A DNA stretch of 64,000 nt, taken from positions 1 through 64,000 of the forward strand of contig CATJXY010000050.1 of assembly GCA_949744505.1 (NCBI GenBank), read 5' to 3'. This DNA is from an uncultured Erysipelotrichaceae bacterium (GTDB taxonomy: Bacteria > Bacillota_I > Bacilli_A > Erysipelotrichales > Erysipelotrichaceae). The notes under the pieces are model-generated. The model did not search any database and had not been told where the DNA came from. It was given only the letters and a program-made list of their open reading frames with translations. Shown here piece by piece: positions 3,055-23,848 of the stretch. The position numbers and the translations under genes were made by a program. Position 1 is the first letter of the stretch. Every line of letters starts with the position of its first letter.

Positions 3055-3081
3055 TTAGCACTTAAATAGTTTGAGTGCTAA
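3055..3081 (-). promoter_or_regulatory. CIRCE operator of clpB
   Basis: TTAGCACTT, 9 nt, GAGTGCTAA. This is the HrcA-binding inverted repeat with a single departure from TTAGCACTC-N9-GAGTGCTAA. It lies just upstream of the clpB Shine-Dalgarno, in the 5' leader. Confidence 0.93.
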
Positions 3082-7754: not shown

Positions 7755-7781
7755 TTAGCACTCTGTTTCTATGTCTGCTAA
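7755..7781 (-). promoter_or_regulatory. CIRCE operator downstream of the hrcA -10
   Basis: TTAGCACTC, 9 nt, GTCTGCTAA; two mismatches in one arm. It begins two bases beyond the -10 hexamer and covers the probable transcription start and early leader of hrcA. Confidence 0.85.
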
Positions 7782-7782
7782 T

Positions 7783-7811
7783 AGTATACGATAAAAAATT
7801 AGCACTGTCAA
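7783..7811 (-). promoter_or_regulatory. Promoter of hrcA-grpE-dnaK-dnaJ
   Basis: On the minus strand, -35 TTGACA (7806-7811) and -10 TATACT (7783-7788) are 17 bp apart. This is a near-consensus vegetative promoter embedded between two CIRCE repeats. Confidence 0.92.
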
Positions 7812-7825
7812 CAAATAAGTGCTAA
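7799..7825 (-). promoter_or_regulatory. CIRCE operator over the hrcA -35
   Basis: TTAGCACTG, 9 nt, AAGTGCTAA. This second CIRCE copy contains the -35 hexamer, so HrcA binding here would occlude RNA polymerase directly. Confidence 0.9.
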
Positions 7826-7845: not shown

Positions 7846-8787
7846 TTAATGTGATGGCTTATAAAAAGCTCTGTTTTCCAACGAGAAAATCCTTGATGTA
7901 AACTTCCCCGCTTCTGTTTGAGATAAACTTTTATCAAGCATATTTAATCGAGCATCTAAGTTATCAATAAAATTTAAAACTTCCGCTTCTTGAATCATCG
8001 GCAAAACCGGTGATCCGTATTCATATTCACCATGGTGCGAAAGAACCATATGTCTCAATAAGATTGTATATTCTTCATCTTGAAGATTTAATTTTTCCGC
8101 GGTACTTGCTATCATAGCTTGAACTAACGAAATATGACCAATCAGCTTTCCTTTTAATGTATATTCAGTGATGATAGGCCCGGAAAGTTCTTCAAGTTTT
8201 CCGACATCATGTAAAATAATTCCCGCAAACAACAAATCACGATTTAATTGCGGATACAACTCACAAAGTGCAGCACCGATATCAAGCATACCACATGTAT
8301 GAGTTGCTAGTCCCGCAACCATATTATGATGATTTTTTGCGGCAGCTGGATATTGGTAAAACATATCCCCTATTTCATTTATAATGGTAGAGACAAGTTG
8401 ATATAAAACCTCATTATCCAATGATTTAATCGTTAATTCAATTTTATCTTTCAATTTATTTTTTGGTATCGGACTCTCTGGAACAAAATCACCATAATCA
8501 ATTCCTTTTTCATCAACCAATGAGATACTGTGAATTCGAAGTTGGAGCGAATTTCTATACATCAGCACTTCCGCATTTACCAGTCCAATTCTACCACAAC
8601 TGATTTGCTCCGCTTGCTCAGGTTTTACATCCCAGATTTTCCCCTCAATTGTTCCACTTTTATCTTGCAATGTAATAGACAGGTATGGAGCTCCCGTTGT
8701 AGTCACTCCGTTTGTCACTGCTTTAATCAAAAGCTCAGTTTTTATTGATTCTTTTTCTTTAAACTCTGAAATATATTTTTTATTCAT
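7846..8787 (-). CDS. yhaM: 3'-5' exoribonuclease, YhaM/CBF1 family
   Basis: A 313-residue protein with an N-terminal OB fold (about 12-95, LSITLQDKSGTIEGKIWDV) and a C-terminal HD phosphohydrolase domain. The metal-binding HD motif is in GIILHDVGKLEEL, with further histidines in ATHTCGM and HMVLSHHGEYEYG. The family is a Firmicutes 3'-to-5' exonuclease that trims RNA ends (and ssDNA). The chosen ATG overlaps the stop of the upstream glycosyltransferase-RecX gene and has GGAG 7 nt upstream. No terminator separates it from the hrcA promoter, so read-through into hrcA is possible. Confidence 0.9.
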   Translation of the reverse strand: MNKKYISEFKEKESIKTELLIKAVTNGVTTTGAPYLSITLQDKSGTIEGKIWDVKPEQAEQISCGRIGLVNAEVLMYRNSLQLRIHSISLVDEKGIDYGDFVPESPIPKNKLKDKIELTIKSLDNEVLYQLVSTIINEIGDMFYQYPAAAKNHHNMVAGLATHTCGMLDIGAALCELYPQLNRDLLFAGIILHDVGKLEELSGPIITEYTLKGKLIGHISLVQAMIASTAEKLNLQDEEYTILLRHMVLSHHGEYEYGSPVLPMIQEAEVLNFIDNLDARLNMLDKSLSQTEAGKFTSRIFSLENRAFYKPSH

Positions 8788-10765
8788 CTTCCCACTCCAT
8801 TTCACTCAGTACGAAGTAAATATCTTCCTGCTTGAACCCTTGCGAAGCACAATAACGATAAACTGTATTCCTTAATTTCGTTCCGGAATAACGGTTCATG
8901 TATCTTTTCTTAGCTTTATTGGCCACTTTACGAAGATTATCTAATTCTGCACTTTCTTCTGCGGAAAAGCTTAGCTGTTCCATAACTTGATTTATTATAT
9001 CATAATTGTATCCTTGTGCACTCAATTTATTTCGCATTGCATATTTTTTCATCTTTACGGATTTGTCTTTAATAGTAGGTTGAATCTTTAAAGCCCACTT
9101 TAAAGCATTCGATACTTCATCATCACTATCCATCGTATCAAATAAATGCTCTATAATTTCATAAGGAACACCTTTTTTTCTAAGATTATATATGATTTTA
9201 TTCCTTCCCATTAACAAACCTTTTACACTATCAAGATAGCTATATGCATATCTTTCATCATCTAAAAGACCTCTTTTTTCCAATTTAAGAATTAAATCAT
9301 TAATTTCTCCTATGCTACAATCCGTTTTCATAGTAAGCCAATCGTACATTTCTTTCTTTGTGCGATCTTTCGTAACAAGCTTCTTAATACATCCTAAATA
9401 CGCAAGCATTACTTTCTGCTTTTGTAATAATTCATCTAGACATTCCTGTGTTATCTTAGATCCTTTTCTTAAACCATACTCAACATAAGTATCTAAATCC
9501 ACAAGAACTTTAATCGTTTCTATTTTAGACTCTACCGTTAGTTCAACACAATCTTCTTTGGTTTTAATTTTTTCAATTGAAAACAATTTTGCAAAATGAT
9601 GTATCGCAGATTCATAAACTTGTTCTACACTTTTTCCGAAAGCAGCCGAATCATATTTCATTGCGGTAACTCTGGCACATTGAGCAATTTCCTCTTTTTG
9701 ATCTTGATTTAAAGATAAAAAACTTTCAACTTTTTGAGCAAACTCTTCTGCATCATTGAAATAAAAACCTGTTTTTCCTTCGTATACCAAATCATCCAAA
9801 ACATCATCCGGCCTTGCGAATACCGGTGTACTGGAAGCTAAAGCCTCAACAAAAGTCATCCCCTGTGTCTCACTTAAAGAAGCAGAAACAAATCCATCTG
9901 CTGCATGATAATAAAGTGGAACTTCTGAAGCAGGCTTTTTACCCATAAAATAAACCCAATCATTCAAATCCAAATCTTGTACTTGTTTTTTTAATTCATG
10001 GATACCCGGACCATCACCAACTATGACAAATTTTGCATTTGCATTTCTTTTCTTTAACACATTAAATCCATCGATTACTAGATCAATACTTTTTTCTTTC
10101 GCTATCCTGCCAACAAAGACAATCATAGCTTCATCTTCTTTTACATGACATTCTTCACGACATTTTAATATATCTTCTTTAGATGAATGCGATTTATCAA
10201 AGCGATCTAGGTCTAACCCGGTTGGAATAACATGAATTCTTCCTTTTGAGCCATATTTCAACAATAACTCTTTTGTTTTTGAACTCGGTGCAATTACTTC
10301 CACAGAAGTATCCGCTAAAAGTTTTGAAAATTGAGCTATTGCTTTTTTACTTACTGTATCAATCGCTTTCAAATCTAAAAAATTAATGTAGTGTGTATAA
10401 TCTTCATACTGGGTATGATATGTTGATACAAGCGGTATTCCCAATGTTTTTGCCACAATGCGAGCAAACATTCCCACACCGAACTCTGTCTGTACATGAA
10501 TTACATCAAGATTCCATTCTTTAATTTGATTTAAAGCAATAAGATGAATCGGTTGTGTAATAACATAACCATAAAAATTTTTCAGTTCTACTCCCGACAA
10601 TCTCATAATGTGCGTAGAATCTTCCTCAACCGGTTTATTGGGCATCGTAGCCACAACATAAACTTCATGTCCGAGTTTTTCAAGCTCGGACTTCAAAGTT
10701 ACTATAGATGAAACAACACCATTTATATCAGGAACATAACAATCAGAAAATAATCCTACTCGCAT
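8780..10765 (-). CDS. GT4 glycosyltransferase fused to a RecX-like domain
   Basis: A 661-residue two-part protein. Residues 1-390 form a GT-B fold glycosyltransferase (GT4) resembling diacylglycerol glucosyltransferases: MRVGLFSDCYVPDINGVVSS at the N-terminus, a conserved donor-site segment VFVGRIAKEKSIDLVI, and the E-x7-E motif ETQGMTFVE. After a linker, residues about 450-660 match RecX, the small helical modulator of RecA: RTKKEMYDWLTMKT, then LEKRGLLDDERYAYSYLDSV, MGRNKIIYNLRKKGV and a second set of similar repeats. No frameshift or stop lies between the parts. It overlaps the upstream flippase gene by 10 bp and the downstream yhaM by 8 bp. The glycosyltransferase role is probably glycolipid head-group synthesis; the RecX part may act separately on RecA. 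Confidence 0.88.
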   Translation of the reverse strand: MRVGLFSDCYVPDINGVVSSIVTLKSELEKLGHEVYVVATMPNKPVEEDSTHIMRLSGVELKNFYGYVITQPIHLIALNQIKEWNLDVIHVQTEFGVGMFARIVAKTLGIPLVSTYHTQYEDYTHYINFLDLKAIDTVSKKAIAQFSKLLADTSVEVIAPSSKTKELLLKYGSKGRIHVIPTGLDLDRFDKSHSSKEDILKCREECHVKEDEAMIVFVGRIAKEKSIDLVIDGFNVLKKRNANAKFVIVGDGPGIHELKKQVQDLDLNDWVYFMGKKPASEVPLYYHAADGFVSASLSETQGMTFVEALASSTPVFARPDDVLDDLVYEGKTGFYFNDAEEFAQKVESFLSLNQDQKEEIAQCARVTAMKYDSAAFGKSVEQVYESAIHHFAKLFSIEKIKTKEDCVELTVESKIETIKVLVDLDTYVEYGLRKGSKITQECLDELLQKQKVMLAYLGCIKKLVTKDRTKKEMYDWLTMKTDCSIGEINDLILKLEKRGLLDDERYAYSYLDSVKGLLMGRNKIIYNLRKKGVPYEIIEHLFDTMDSDDEVSNALKWALKIQPTIKDKSVKMKKYAMRNKLSAQGYNYDIINQVMEQLSFSAEESAELDNLRKVANKAKKRYMNRYSGTKLRNTVYRYCASQGFKQEDIYFVLSEMEWEDE

Positions 10766-11823
10766 AATGAATCTCCTTTATTTTTTTTCTTACCATATTT
10801 TACACCAATAAAGCTAACAATGCCAAGTATTAGTACAAAATAGAAAGAGATCAATCGCCATAGAAACATTGTGCTGACAGCTTGATAGTTTCCAAGTGGA
10901 TATGAAAACATAACAAGATACATCGCTTCCATTCCTCCACTTGCTCCGGGAAGTGGGTTAAATGCATTGATAAGAGATACGAAAGATGCTAATACAATCA
11001 TATCTATATATAATTCAAATGTTAAATCAATTTTAAGTAACAGAGCGCATATAGCAGGAATGCTATAATAAAATAACAAACGTAACACATTTAAAATTAT
11101 CAAACGAAGAATTAATTTTCCATTTGATTTTAATCGATTGATTCCTTTTTCAAATTCTGCCAATTTACCATCTAATTTTTTAATAGAATTTTCCTTGTCT
11201 TTAACAATTCTCATTTTTACAAGCAAATCTATTCCTTGGTGTGAAATCCATCTATAAACTGATGGAACAAGAACCATTAACATTAATGAAACGATTACAG
11301 AACCATTAATAATAAATCCAATAATCACAAGTCCCATGTATTCTCGATATGTTCCGATAAAATATTGAAATTTAAATAAGATCATGAGTAATGTAAATGC
11401 TACAAAAGTTGATTGATAAACAATAAAATCTAACCACAGTATTCCGGCCGAATCACTAAAATCAATTCCATGCTTCTTGAATACATAGACTTGGGCAAAT
11501 TGCCCCCCTGTTGCACTCGGTGTAATTCCTTGAAATAATCCGGCAACAGTTGCATTAACAAACCCTTGAAACAAACTATAATCCTTCTTTACTGTTCTAC
11601 TTAACTCTGTTATGATTTTTCCAATAATTAATTGGTAAAAGATTGCACAAAAAATCATGACAAAAACTGAAAAAGTGTCTAGTCGCTTAATCATCAAAAG
11701 AATCTGTGGTCCATTGTCTTTCAATACAATTCGCGATACTAAGTAACTAATCAACATGACTAAAGCAAAGTTAAACACATAATTATTAAATAGTTTTTTC
11801 ATTAATCGCAAGAACTCTGTCAT
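10756..11823 (-). CDS. Flippase-like integral membrane protein (LPG synthase TM/UPF0104 family)
   Basis: A 355-residue polytopic membrane protein with about eight hydrophobic segments. It matches the lysylphosphatidylglycerol-synthase transmembrane (MprF N-terminal, YbhN-like) family: VNATVAGLFQGITPSATGGQFAQVYVFKKHG and the later NAFNPLPGASGGMEAMY motif are characteristic. The aminoacyl-transferase domain of MprF is absent. Sandwiched between two glycosyltransferases with overlapping ends (38 bp upstream, 10 bp downstream), it is probably involved in translocating or supplying glycolipids. The start is uncertain: no strong Shine-Dalgarno precedes either 11823 or the internal Met at 11802, consistent with translational coupling. 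Confidence 0.85.
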   Translation of the reverse strand: MTEFLRLMKKLFNNYVFNFALVMLISYLVSRIVLKDNGPQILLMIKRLDTFSVFVMIFCAIFYQLIIGKIITELSRTVKKDYSLFQGFVNATVAGLFQGITPSATGGQFAQVYVFKKHGIDFSDSAGILWLDFIVYQSTFVAFTLLMILFKFQYFIGTYREYMGLVIIGFIINGSVIVSLMLMVLVPSVYRWISHQGIDLLVKMRIVKDKENSIKKLDGKLAEFEKGINRLKSNGKLILRLIILNVLRLLFYYSIPAICALLLKIDLTFELYIDMIVLASFVSLINAFNPLPGASGGMEAMYLVMFSYPLGNYQAVSTMFLWRLISFYFVLILGIVSFIGVKYGKKKNKGDSLCE

Positions 11824-12802
11824 AAACTTTTTTTAACTGCTCTCCCACTTTTTCAAAGCTTCGCTGTTCAGCAGTTTTTCTCCCTTCAATCTTTGTTTCA
11901 GGGCATCTTTTTTCCACTATATCTTCAAGTAATGAAACAAATTCGTCAATATTTTTACCTTTATAACAATTCACCCCATGAATCATCCACGGATCAAATG
12001 CACCAATGTCTCTAATAAGAATATTTTGATAAGAAGCTAAGGCTTCTAAAACAACAATACCTTCTGTTTCCTCATAACTCGGGAAAAAGAATGCATCTGA
12101 TCCAGCATACGCTCCTTGTATGATCGGACCACTGACATACCCCGGGAAAATCACATTAGCCGGATAATTTATTGTAGCATCTCTTATCTCTTTGGGAATA
12201 GAAAGAGACGGTGTATGCCCAAACCAAATGAATTTGTACTGAGGGCATCTCTTTGCAACTTCTATGAAATCAAGAATTCCTTTTCTTTTGAAAAAAAGCC
12301 CAACTGACAAAACTACTTTATCCTCTTCTTTCAAAGAAAAATAATCACGAAAAGCCTTAATTTTTTCTTCATCCGGGCTAAATCGACTTAAATCCACTCC
12401 ATTTGAAATAGCTGTAATCGGTACAGTTATCCCATAACTTTCTAAAATTTTTTTTGAATATGGTGTTGGCGTAATGATCTCATCTGCACTTGAATAAAGA
12501 GAAATTAAACGTTGCTTGAATAAAGGTGCCAACTGATTGGATAATATAAAACTGTTTTTAAAATCCTCTTCTGTTGAATGAGCATGGTACACGACTGGAA
12601 TATTTCTAGAACGAGCATGCTTGATAACAGCTTCACTTCCAACATAAATCGTATTGATATGCAAAATGTCATAATCATCATCAGGATCAGTCGTTGTTTC
12701 AATCCCTTGTGTATTCAATGCTGCGATTTGATGTTTCAATGCTCTTCCAATTCCCGAAGTAGCAATCATTTTTTCTCCTTCAAAATATAAACAAACCTTC
12801 AT
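11786..12802 (-). CDS. GT4 family glycosyltransferase
   Basis: A 338-residue GT-B glycosyltransferase. The N-terminal acceptor domain begins MKVCLYFEGEKMIATSGIGRALKHQ. The donor domain contains LSVGLFFKRKGILDFIEVA and the E-x7-E segment EETEGIVVLE. The start at 12802 has AAGGAG 7 nt upstream; a longer reading frame to 12826 would run over this site. It resembles the first glycosyltransferase of Gram-positive glycolipid pathways (the alpha-glucosyl-diacylglycerol route), and is the first gene of the operon with the flippase-like protein and the second glycosyltransferase. The exact sugar and acceptor cannot be read from sequence. Confidence 0.88.
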   Translation of the reverse strand: MKVCLYFEGEKMIATSGIGRALKHQIAALNTQGIETTTDPDDDYDILHINTIYVGSEAVIKHARSRNIPVVYHAHSTEEDFKNSFILSNQLAPLFKQRLISLYSSADEIITPTPYSKKILESYGITVPITAISNGVDLSRFSPDEEKIKAFRDYFSLKEEDKVVLSVGLFFKRKGILDFIEVAKRCPQYKFIWFGHTPSLSIPKEIRDATINYPANVIFPGYVSGPIIQGAYAGSDAFFFPSYEETEGIVVLEALASYQNILIRDIGAFDPWMIHGVNCYKGKNIDEFVSLLEDIVEKRCPETKIEGRKTAEQRSFEKVGEQLKKVYDRVLAINEKTI

Positions 12803-12941
12803 ATTATTACTCCTTACAGATTTCAACTTAATTTAAGCAAAAACAGCACATGTATTTTGTCATTTTGCGTAGCTTTCACTAATAATCATTTTAACACACA
12901 AACCTTAAATTTTTTTTAAGCAAAACTTAAACAACAACTAA

Positions 12942-13033: not shown

Positions 13034-13063
13034 TAAAAAAAGAGAGAGGATTAAACCTCTCTC
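13034..13063 (-). terminator. Intrinsic terminator after PFOR
   Basis: Stem GAGAGAGG/CCTCTCTC (13042-13049 with 13056-13063), 6-nt loop, followed on the minus strand by seven T residues. Confidence 0.92.
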
Positions 13064-21961: not shown

Positions 21962-23107
21962 TTAGCTCCCTTCTAATTCAATTGAAAATAGGAATTCTCC
22001 GGTATAACTACCTGCAATCGGAAATTTACATCGCTTCACAATTCCATTTAATTGAACGTTATATGTTTCTTCCGACAACTGCCTTCCATCTATATAAACT
22101 TCAAACATGTTTAAAAATTCATGTTCCAACCAATTCTCTCCATCAAGAAAAAAAACATTTGTAGAAGTATAAATATCTTGATGTTGTGTATGAAATAAGT
22201 CAAAGAAACCAAACTCATTAATTCCCTTTATCGAAACATGTAACAATTGTCCTCTCGGAATTGAGCCTTTAAATGCAACAACAAAATGTGAATCTTTTTC
22301 CCCTTTGCCATCTAAAGTGATTATTTTTGGAATACTAATATAAAACTCATTATTTTTAATATAAACTGCCTGTATTTCTGCGTCTTCATAAAATCTTATA
22401 TTTTCAAATTCTCTATCCCAACAATCAAATGTCCATCCCATTCTGCTTGGTTGTTTCGGTACATCTAAATACAATTTTGCAAGTTCTACATTGTCACACC
22501 ATGACATATCTTCTGCACAAACCCACTTCAACCGAGAAGTTGTTTCAAGTATTTGCGCATCTATCAAACTGCCATCCCAATCGATAAATCGGATAACAAC
22601 TTCAAGACGATCATCGTTTCCATCAGGAACATCAATTCTATTTGCTTCTCCTTCACCAATCTTATCTTGGATGATATAAATTACCAACCCGCTAATTCCT
22701 TCGTATCCACTTCCCACTAATGATAATGGCGGTAATGACATAAGTATATCATCAAATCCACCTATTGGAACAAAGATCCAATCAGTATTCCAATAACCAT
22801 ACCCAACAACTTTCCATCCATTTTCTATCTCTTCCTCTGTAAATAAGATTTGTGGAAAAATATCCTCTGTCACAAGTTTTTCACGTTCATTTTCAGGAAC
22901 GAGATATGTTTCAAACTCAAGAGTTCCTATATCCGTTTCTTTTGTATATCCATTCCCCCACTGCACGTAATCAAGCATTTCTGCCAAATGAAATTGAATT
23001 AAACATATTTCTTCTTGATAAGACGTTTCCTCTTCGGCATTGATTTTTATTAATAAAATACCCGAACAAATCAAAATAAACAAAAAAATCACTAAACTCT
23101 TTTTCAT
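21962..23107 (-). CDS. Secreted protein with InlB-type repeat and pilin-like beta-sandwich domain
   Basis: A 381-residue exported protein. A signal peptide is evident (KKSLVIFLFILICSGILLIKINA). The middle (about 180-255) matches an InlB-B/Listeria-Bacteroides repeat: VVIRFIDWDGSLIDAQIL ... GWTFDCWDREFENIRFYEDA ... IQAVYI. The C-terminal part (about 258-381) starts FYISIPKIITLDGKGEKDS, nearly the same as a segment in the neighbour at 23195-23848, and ends with an AGSYTGEFLFSIEL strand. No LPXTG or SLH anchor is visible. Function unknown; probably a surface or fibrillar component. Confidence 0.65.
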   Translation of the reverse strand: MKKSLVIFLFILICSGILLIKINAEEETSYQEEICLIQFHLAEMLDYVQWGNGYTKETDIGTLEFETYLVPENEREKLVTEDIFPQILFTEEEIENGWKVVGYGYWNTDWIFVPIGGFDDILMSLPPLSLVGSGYEGISGLVIYIIQDKIGEGEANRIDVPDGNDDRLEVVIRFIDWDGSLIDAQILETTSRLKWVCAEDMSWCDNVELAKLYLDVPKQPSRMGWTFDCWDREFENIRFYEDAEIQAVYIKNNEFYISIPKIITLDGKGEKDSHFVVAFKGSIPRGQLLHVSIKGINEFGFFDLFHTQHQDIYTSTNVFFLDGENWLEHEFLNMFEVYIDGRQLSEETYNVQLNGIVKRCKFPIAGSYTGEFLFSIELEGS

Positions 23108-23125
23108 TTCCTTACCTCTTTTTTT

Positions 23126-23165
23126 AAAAATAGAAGGATTGAAATCTTCATTGACCTCAATCCTT
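23126..23165 (-). terminator. Hairpin between the two secreted-protein genes
   Basis: Minus strand stem AAGGATTGA/TCAATCCTT (9 bp, 14-nt loop) followed by CTATTTTT. Likely a partial terminator that lowers expression of the two downstream genes relative to 23195-23848. Confidence 0.75.
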
Positions 23166-23194
23166 TTAATAACTTCAATTATAAAGGCGATTTT

Positions 23195-23848
23195 CTAATC
23201 CATTTCTAAACTTAAATCTATCAAATCGAAACAAATATTGAATGTTCCCGTATATGCTCCAGGCATCGGTGCCTTTTCATTTTCAATTATGTAATATCCC
23301 ATTCCATCACCATTGTATACATCTTGCGAAATAAGATTCCATCCATAAAATAAAGTCAATGAATCCGTATACGAACTAATGCTTGCATTAAACTTCTGCC
23401 GCTCGTCTCGGGTATTGATAAGTTCAAAATTTGAACTTGGAGTCGATGTGACTGCATAATTAGGAACCAGTGCTCCTTTTACACCTACTATAAATCCACT
23501 TTCTTTTTCTCCTGTTGCATCTAATGTGATAATTTTTGGTATACTGACAGTAAATTCCGACGCCAAAGAAGCATAAACCTCGACTTCATAAGATTCTTGA
23601 TACTCTGAAATATTAACAATTTGTGTAGCTTTTTTATCTTGAAATTCATCTGTTCCTTCTAATTCCACTTCATGAAGACTGTCATCAATAGAATTTCCAT
23701 CCCACGACTCACTTGGAGTTGAATTATTTTCATCACCCAAATAATGTTCTCCAAGTGTTTGAGCAAAAGCATTAATTCCCGTATTTCCTACCACTGTCAT
23801 TGCAACAATATTCCCCAGCACATAATTCACCATTTTTTTCTTCAACAT
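23195..23848 (-). CDS. Small secreted pilin-like/surface beta-sandwich protein
   Basis: A 217-residue protein with an export signal (KKKMVNYVLGNIVAMTVVGNTGINAFAQ). After an acidic linker, residues about 93-217 form one beta-rich domain opening with FTVSIPKIITLDATGEKES and closing with GAYTGTFNICFDLIDL. The same layout (IPK..TLD at the front, G.YTG.F at the end) is seen in the C-terminal part of the next gene. This type of short, anchorless secreted protein is frequent in anaerobic Firmicutes, but I know no established function. AGGAGG precedes the ATG. It is the first gene of the operon, behind an unusual leader. Confidence 0.65.
   Translation of the reverse strand: MLKKKMVNYVLGNIVAMTVVGNTGINAFAQTLGEHYLGDENNSTPSESWDGNSIDDSLHEVELEGTDEFQDKKATQIVNISEYQESYEVEVYASLASEFTVSIPKIITLDATGEKESGFIVGVKGALVPNYAVTSTPSSNFELINTRDERQKFNASISSYTDSLTLFYGWNLISQDVYNGDGMGYYIIENEKAPMPGAYTGTFNICFDLIDLSLEMD

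Follow-up and report, generated by a model that had tools for sequence, protein, structure and literature searches.

In LTA glycolipid-anchor systems, glycosyltransferases act serially on diacylglycerol. The alpha-monoglucosyldiacylglycerol synthases (MGS) characterised from A. laidlawii and S. pneumoniae are monotopic enzymes that require PG (PMC3916417), and the known model of this family, NF049988, describes a stand-alone protein of 398 positions. On the side of recombination, RecX of B. subtilis is YfhG, a protein of 264 aa (PMC3527212), while in E. coli the storage structures and bundles of RecA are found in association with anionic phospholipids (PMC6363387). In E. coli, a laboratory fusion of mNeonGreen to the N terminus of RecX leaves RecX active (PMC9252578). 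Here we describe a gene of an uncultured Erysipelotrichaceae bacterium (GCA_949744505.1) in which an MGS-like glycosyltransferase of family GT4 runs directly into RecX. We found no published account of this fusion in the open-access literature, and the arrangement is apparently undescribed so far.

The gene lies in a stretch of 64,000 nucleotides from contig CATJXY010000050.1, which we refer to as the window. An original prediction, made from the sequence alone, had placed a GT4 glycosyltransferase and a RecX-like module of about 200 residues in one open frame at 8780-10765. Profile matches to both domains bore out the frame and its position, but the coding strand is the minus one, stops crowding the plus strand there, and the RecX portion spans about 269 residues. 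Its features are as follows.

8780-10765, minus strand: GT4-RecX fusion gene, 661 aa, conserved across the order
9596-10765, minus strand: glycosyltransferase domain, residues 1-390, alpha-monoglucosyldiacylglycerol synthase-like; NF049988 305 bits (curated cut-off 400); GT-B fold by AlphaFold and Foldseek
9845-9871, minus strand: E-x7-E motif, E299-TQGMTFV-E307, with E299, T300, Q301, G302 and E307 invariant
8783-9589, minus strand: RecX domain, residues 393-661, an N-terminal beta domain followed by helical repeats; NF010733 131 bits; PDB RecX structures retrieved by profile and by fold
10772-10777, minus strand: Shine-Dalgarno-like AGGAGA ahead of the start codon of the fusion; the junction between the two halves has no comparable site

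The N-terminal half combines the GT-B fold with an E-x7-E motif, as expected for GT4, and a profile scan recovered both GT4 domains (PF13439, 2e-29; PF00534, 1.5e-32). The motif had been noted in the original prediction and proved invariant in 28 aligned fusions. Among the families scored, the MGlcDAG synthase profile NF049988 was best by a wide margin, matching across residues 1-390, and it covered the full glycosyltransferase domain in 21/21 domains scanned, with the catalytic residues kept. Because the score of the window's protein stays below the curated equivalog cut-off, we term this half MGS-like and do not file it as a member of the family. Sequence likeness to the A. laidlawii MGS family thus spans the whole domain and includes common catalytic residues, the difference being that the C terminus of the enzyme continues here into RecX. 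The product is most likely monoglucosyldiacylglycerol, the exact sugar and acceptor being less than certain at a sub-cut-off score. A cationic amphipathic stretch is located in the N-domain of this half (residues 132-150).

The C-terminal half resembles Firmicute RecX (YfhG; 3d5l, 3e3v) over its full length, with an N-terminal beta domain, helical repeats, a single copy per genome and recA present, and differs in being joined behind the C terminus of a glycosyltransferase. NF010733 aligned to residues 393-657 over positions 3-264 of 267 (4.7e-38); its curated cut-off of 240 bits was reached neither by the window's RecX nor by that of any sampled genome of the class. RecX_HTH3 exceeded its Pfam cut-off, while HTH1 and HTH2 fell just under theirs in the protein scan and HTH2 passed in the genome scan. 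PDB structures of RecX were also retrieved with a sequence profile search. Since a Foldseek search with the full-length model returned glycosyltransferase hits only, the RecX half was modelled separately (mean pLDDT 92), and its top six hits were RecX chains, including 3d5l, 3e3v, 3c1d and 3dfg (TM by target 0.79-0.85). In the full-length AlphaFold model (pLDDT 87, pTM 0.65), the last glycosyltransferase helix (373-392) runs without a linker into the RecX beta domain (395-423), and the junction is predicted to be well ordered (pLDDT 88-91).

Fused RecX is divergent, with 21-51% identity to that of the window. Compared with stand-alone RecX, G, D, L and I of the core are kept, the GP proline and several further residues are not, and mean retention is 58% across 38 positions. 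The proline of the GP motif occurs in 27/27 outgroup RecX proteins examined but in only 4% of fused ones, with G520-R521 in the window's protein, so that contact with RecA could have changed. A partner at the N terminus does not necessarily inactivate RecX, as the activity of mNeonGreen-RecX indicates (PMC9252578); there, too, a folded partner sits at the RecX N terminus, although that construct is artificial, has a flexible linker and carries the E. coli protein.

Profile searches for a second recX across the window's own genome found none, so that a separate recX elsewhere in that genome was rejected and the fusion is its only RecX. All readable genomes had a single full-length recA, and so did the genome of the window, where it is encoded on another contig (C43, 543 bits).

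We then evaluated how widely the fusion occurs, using frame length as a proxy except where domains were checked, many of the genomes being drafts. Within the GTDB family of the window, RecX was found in 187/196 genomes, and most of the listed matches lay in frames of ~650-710 aa. Across 118 genomes of the order with completeness ≥90%, RecX was found in 114, for 107 of which the frame containing it reached 600 aa or more, and both families were represented. A domain search of 58 in-order loci identified 50 full-length fusions, all of 656-667 aa, the rest being contig-edge, broken, remnant or RecX-only loci. Named carriers include Erysipelothrix tonsillarum, Bulleidia extructa, Amedibacillus dolichus, Holdemanella porci, Faecalicoccus, Absicoccus, Breznakia, Traorella, Sharpea azabuensis, Thomasclavelia and [Clostridium] spiroforme. 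Outside the order, in a phylum-level sample that stayed within the same class, the listed RecX genes were stand-alone, save one weak match (19 bits) in a longer interrupted frame. Two nominally near-complete genomes (G016, G055) gave zero first-look candidates for any of RecX, glycosyltransferase and RecA, which probably reflects faulty data and not gene loss, and were left out.

The original prediction had named four ways of checking it, namely a RecX profile search, a search for other recX genes, structure prediction and a taxonomic survey. All four bore out the fusion: the profile match is significant, the fusion is the sole recX, the model of the RecX half retrieves solved RecX structures first, and the fusion occurs order-wide rather than in one strain. 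Neither the lack of a RecX match nor a single-strain fusion was thus observed, and we conclude that the fusion is real and ancient.

Its neighbours in the window are listed below.

11786-12826, minus strand: IagA/BgsA-type glycolipid glycosyltransferase, first gene of the operon; NF053513 492 bits, passing the cut-off of 460
10756-11823, minus strand: flippase-like membrane protein (LPG_synthase_TM, TIGR00374), overlapping the start of the fusion by 10 nt
7846-8805, minus strand: YhaM 3'-5' exoribonuclease; NF010007 368 bits, cut-off of 460 not reached
7799-7825, strand not given: CIRCE-like element upstream of hrcA, 2 mismatches
7755-7781, strand not given: second CIRCE-like element upstream of hrcA, 2 mismatches
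13042-13063, minus strand: terminator-like hairpin after the pyruvate:ferredoxin oxidoreductase (PFOR) gene; the number of terminator-like hairpins in the window does not exceed that in shuffles

The NF053513 match begins at codon 9 of the IagA/BgsA-type gene, whose true start is probably near 12802, and the hairpin likely marks the upstream edge of the operon. YhaM, whose gene overlaps the end of the fusion by up to 26 nt, is constantly found next to RecX in the order. With an enzyme passing the IagA/BgsA-type profile, the operon resembles LTA glycolipid-anchor operons; it differs in adding the flippase-like protein, the fused RecX and YhaM. The glycolipid context and the exoribonuclease named in the original prediction were therefore found, but the proximity of the heat-shock operon does not indicate shared control. 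The hrcA-grpE-dnaK-dnaJ genes have their own promoter-like site, and the interval between yhaM and hrcA holds the two CIRCE elements; we therefore rejected shared regulation and regard the heat-shock operon as a neighbour with its own control. The window has three CIRCE-like sites where 0.02 would be expected; the third (3055-3081, 1 mismatch) lies between clpB and dnaJ, just upstream of clpB, and thus ClpB is apparently also under HrcA control. Elsewhere in the window (21962-23848), two adjacent predicted secreted proteins share the motif SIPKIITLD.xGEK and are probably paralogous surface proteins.

A glycosyltransferase adjoining recX is not a general feature of Bacilli: neither a glycosyltransferase gene nor yhaM was present within 1.5 kb of recX at 27 outgroup loci, and the association is limited to a few neighbouring lineages. 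In these (L193, L195, L205, L207, L189) the order is flippase-GT-recX-yhaM with the glycosyltransferase (GT) and recX as separate genes, the flippase of L207 not being seen on a contig that begins close by. At four of the five, the GTG start of recX overlaps the end of the glycosyltransferase gene by about two dozen bases. In the glycosyltransferase-domain tree, the fused and in-order split proteins form one supported clade (97/90), and the YhaM tree agrees except for L189, which falls weakly inside (88/76), the alternative not being rejected (p-AU 0.18). The operon with overlapping separate genes is likely the pre-fusion state. A single in-frame joining of these two genes on the stem of Erysipelotrichales would account for the fusion, most simply through a small frame-changing indel within the overlap.

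The halves have since had different fates. In five or more genera the glycosyltransferase is gone or truncated while RecX remains beside yhaM: remnants of ~110 (G125) and ~190 residues (G015) persist, the glycolipid block is gone from a PFOR-recX-yhaM locus (G175), and a transposase-like ORF adjoins recX in G193. No close glycosyltransferase copy was found in the sampled members of g3, g16, g24 and g27, nor in G125 and G193 of g32. The IagA/BgsA-type partner was absent from 12/13 tested genomes having RecX without a fused glycosyltransferase, which indicates that the whole glycolipid pathway went while RecX stayed. A never-fused ancestry for in-family stand-alone RecX was rejected for L007, L019, L024 and L002 on the basis of yhaM/PFOR synteny and glycosyltransferase remnants. 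In two Erysipelothrix-like genomes (g33) and in L183, the gene has been re-split into overlapping frames, which would keep translation coupled; G122 may be split or may contain a sequencing error. Both halves are under purifying selection, with dN/dS (Nei-Gojobori) in most close pairs of about 0.05-0.18 for the glycosyltransferase and 0.02-0.14 for RecX.

Several loci depart from these patterns. In one draft genome (L117, G034) the glycosyltransferase ends at the junction and RecX was not detected anywhere, the only case of a glycosyltransferase without RecX seen in the order. A relocated or acquired MGS-like glycosyltransferase, in a frame of 628 aa, lies beside an IagA-type enzyme in another (L121, G187; 780-2663), where RecX is stand-alone beside yhaM. 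In two uncultured 'Clostridia' (L202, 4842-7181; L203, 4869-7145), an MGS-like glycosyltransferase is contained in a frame of 760-780 aa, that of L203 also matching the IagA-type enzyme (400 bits), which suggests a fusion of both glycolipid glycosyltransferases.

We consider it fairly probable (about 0.65) that the fusion encodes a bifunctional protein, formed once on the stem of the order, whose halves are made 1:1 on one chain and have independent jobs. The N-terminal half would perform the first glycolipid step, and the neighbouring IagA/BgsA-type enzyme would extend its product; the C-terminal half, the cell's only RecX, most likely still binds and modulates RecA filaments, and we infer that no regulatory coupling connects the two. 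As a side effect, RecX would probably be carried on a membrane-peripheral enzyme, which is plausible given that characterised MGS enzymes are monotopic and need PG, that the glycosyltransferase has a cationic amphipathic stretch and that stores and bundles of E. coli RecA are found on anionic phospholipid membrane. The original prediction had left open whether the parts act independently or link envelope-lipid state to recombination. The former reading is favoured because the glycosyltransferase and its pathway were repeatedly lost with RecX kept, which speaks for independence of RecX from its partner, and because the gene was re-split. It is doubtful, in comparison, that the glycosyltransferase serves as a monotopic tether through which RecX acts on RecA at an anionic-lipid membrane or answers envelope-lipid state. 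The membrane association of E. coli RecA, the PG dependence of characterised MGS, the cationic stretch and the persistence of the fusion with a fixed junction are all consistent with such a tether, but RecX is retained alone in at least five genera, splits are tolerated, and a whole-chain pTM of 0.65 gives no support for a fixed interdomain arrangement.

The divergence of fused RecX and the loss of most GP prolines could also suggest that the glycosyltransferase took over the RecX repeats as its scaffold or regulator and that these have ceased to act on RecA. This appears improbable, as RecX is retained where the glycosyltransferase is gone, fused genomes have no second recX though recA is present, and purifying selection on RecX equals or exceeds that on the glycosyltransferase in most close pairs. 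Release of free RecX by an internal translation start or by proteolysis would be in keeping with the overlapping separate genes of the likely ancestral operon; it is highly improbable, since a conserved internal start with its own Shine-Dalgarno site is lacking at the junction of 51 fused genes, the best such site in the window matches at 2 bases, compared with 5 for the true start, and the junction itself is predicted to be well ordered, helix passing into beta domain. Finally, the window's genome is a draft of 70 contigs, in which an assembly or frameshift artefact might have joined two genes, but the chance of this is negligible: the fusion recurs at near-constant length in 50 verified loci from dozens of independent genomes, isolate and single-contig genomes included, which excludes chance or assembly error.

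Fusion proteins of ~660 aa are easily labelled 'glycosyltransferase' only, hiding recX from annotation, in an order where the fusion is fixed in nearly all sampled members and which includes common gut bacteria. Living lineages still show every stage: unfused operons with overlapping genes, the fusion, its partial decay and its re-splitting. That almost all genomes of two families keep the fusion, with a junction that has no linker and hardly varies, could mean that the physical link matters. It seems rather unlikely that a membrane-tied RecX would confine RecA filament control, or tune it by anionic or glycolipid state, across the order; if true, envelope composition would be physically and directly linked to recombination or the SOS response. 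With the sole RecX of the cell on a membrane-lipid enzyme, whether the membrane position of RecX matters for RecA becomes testable.
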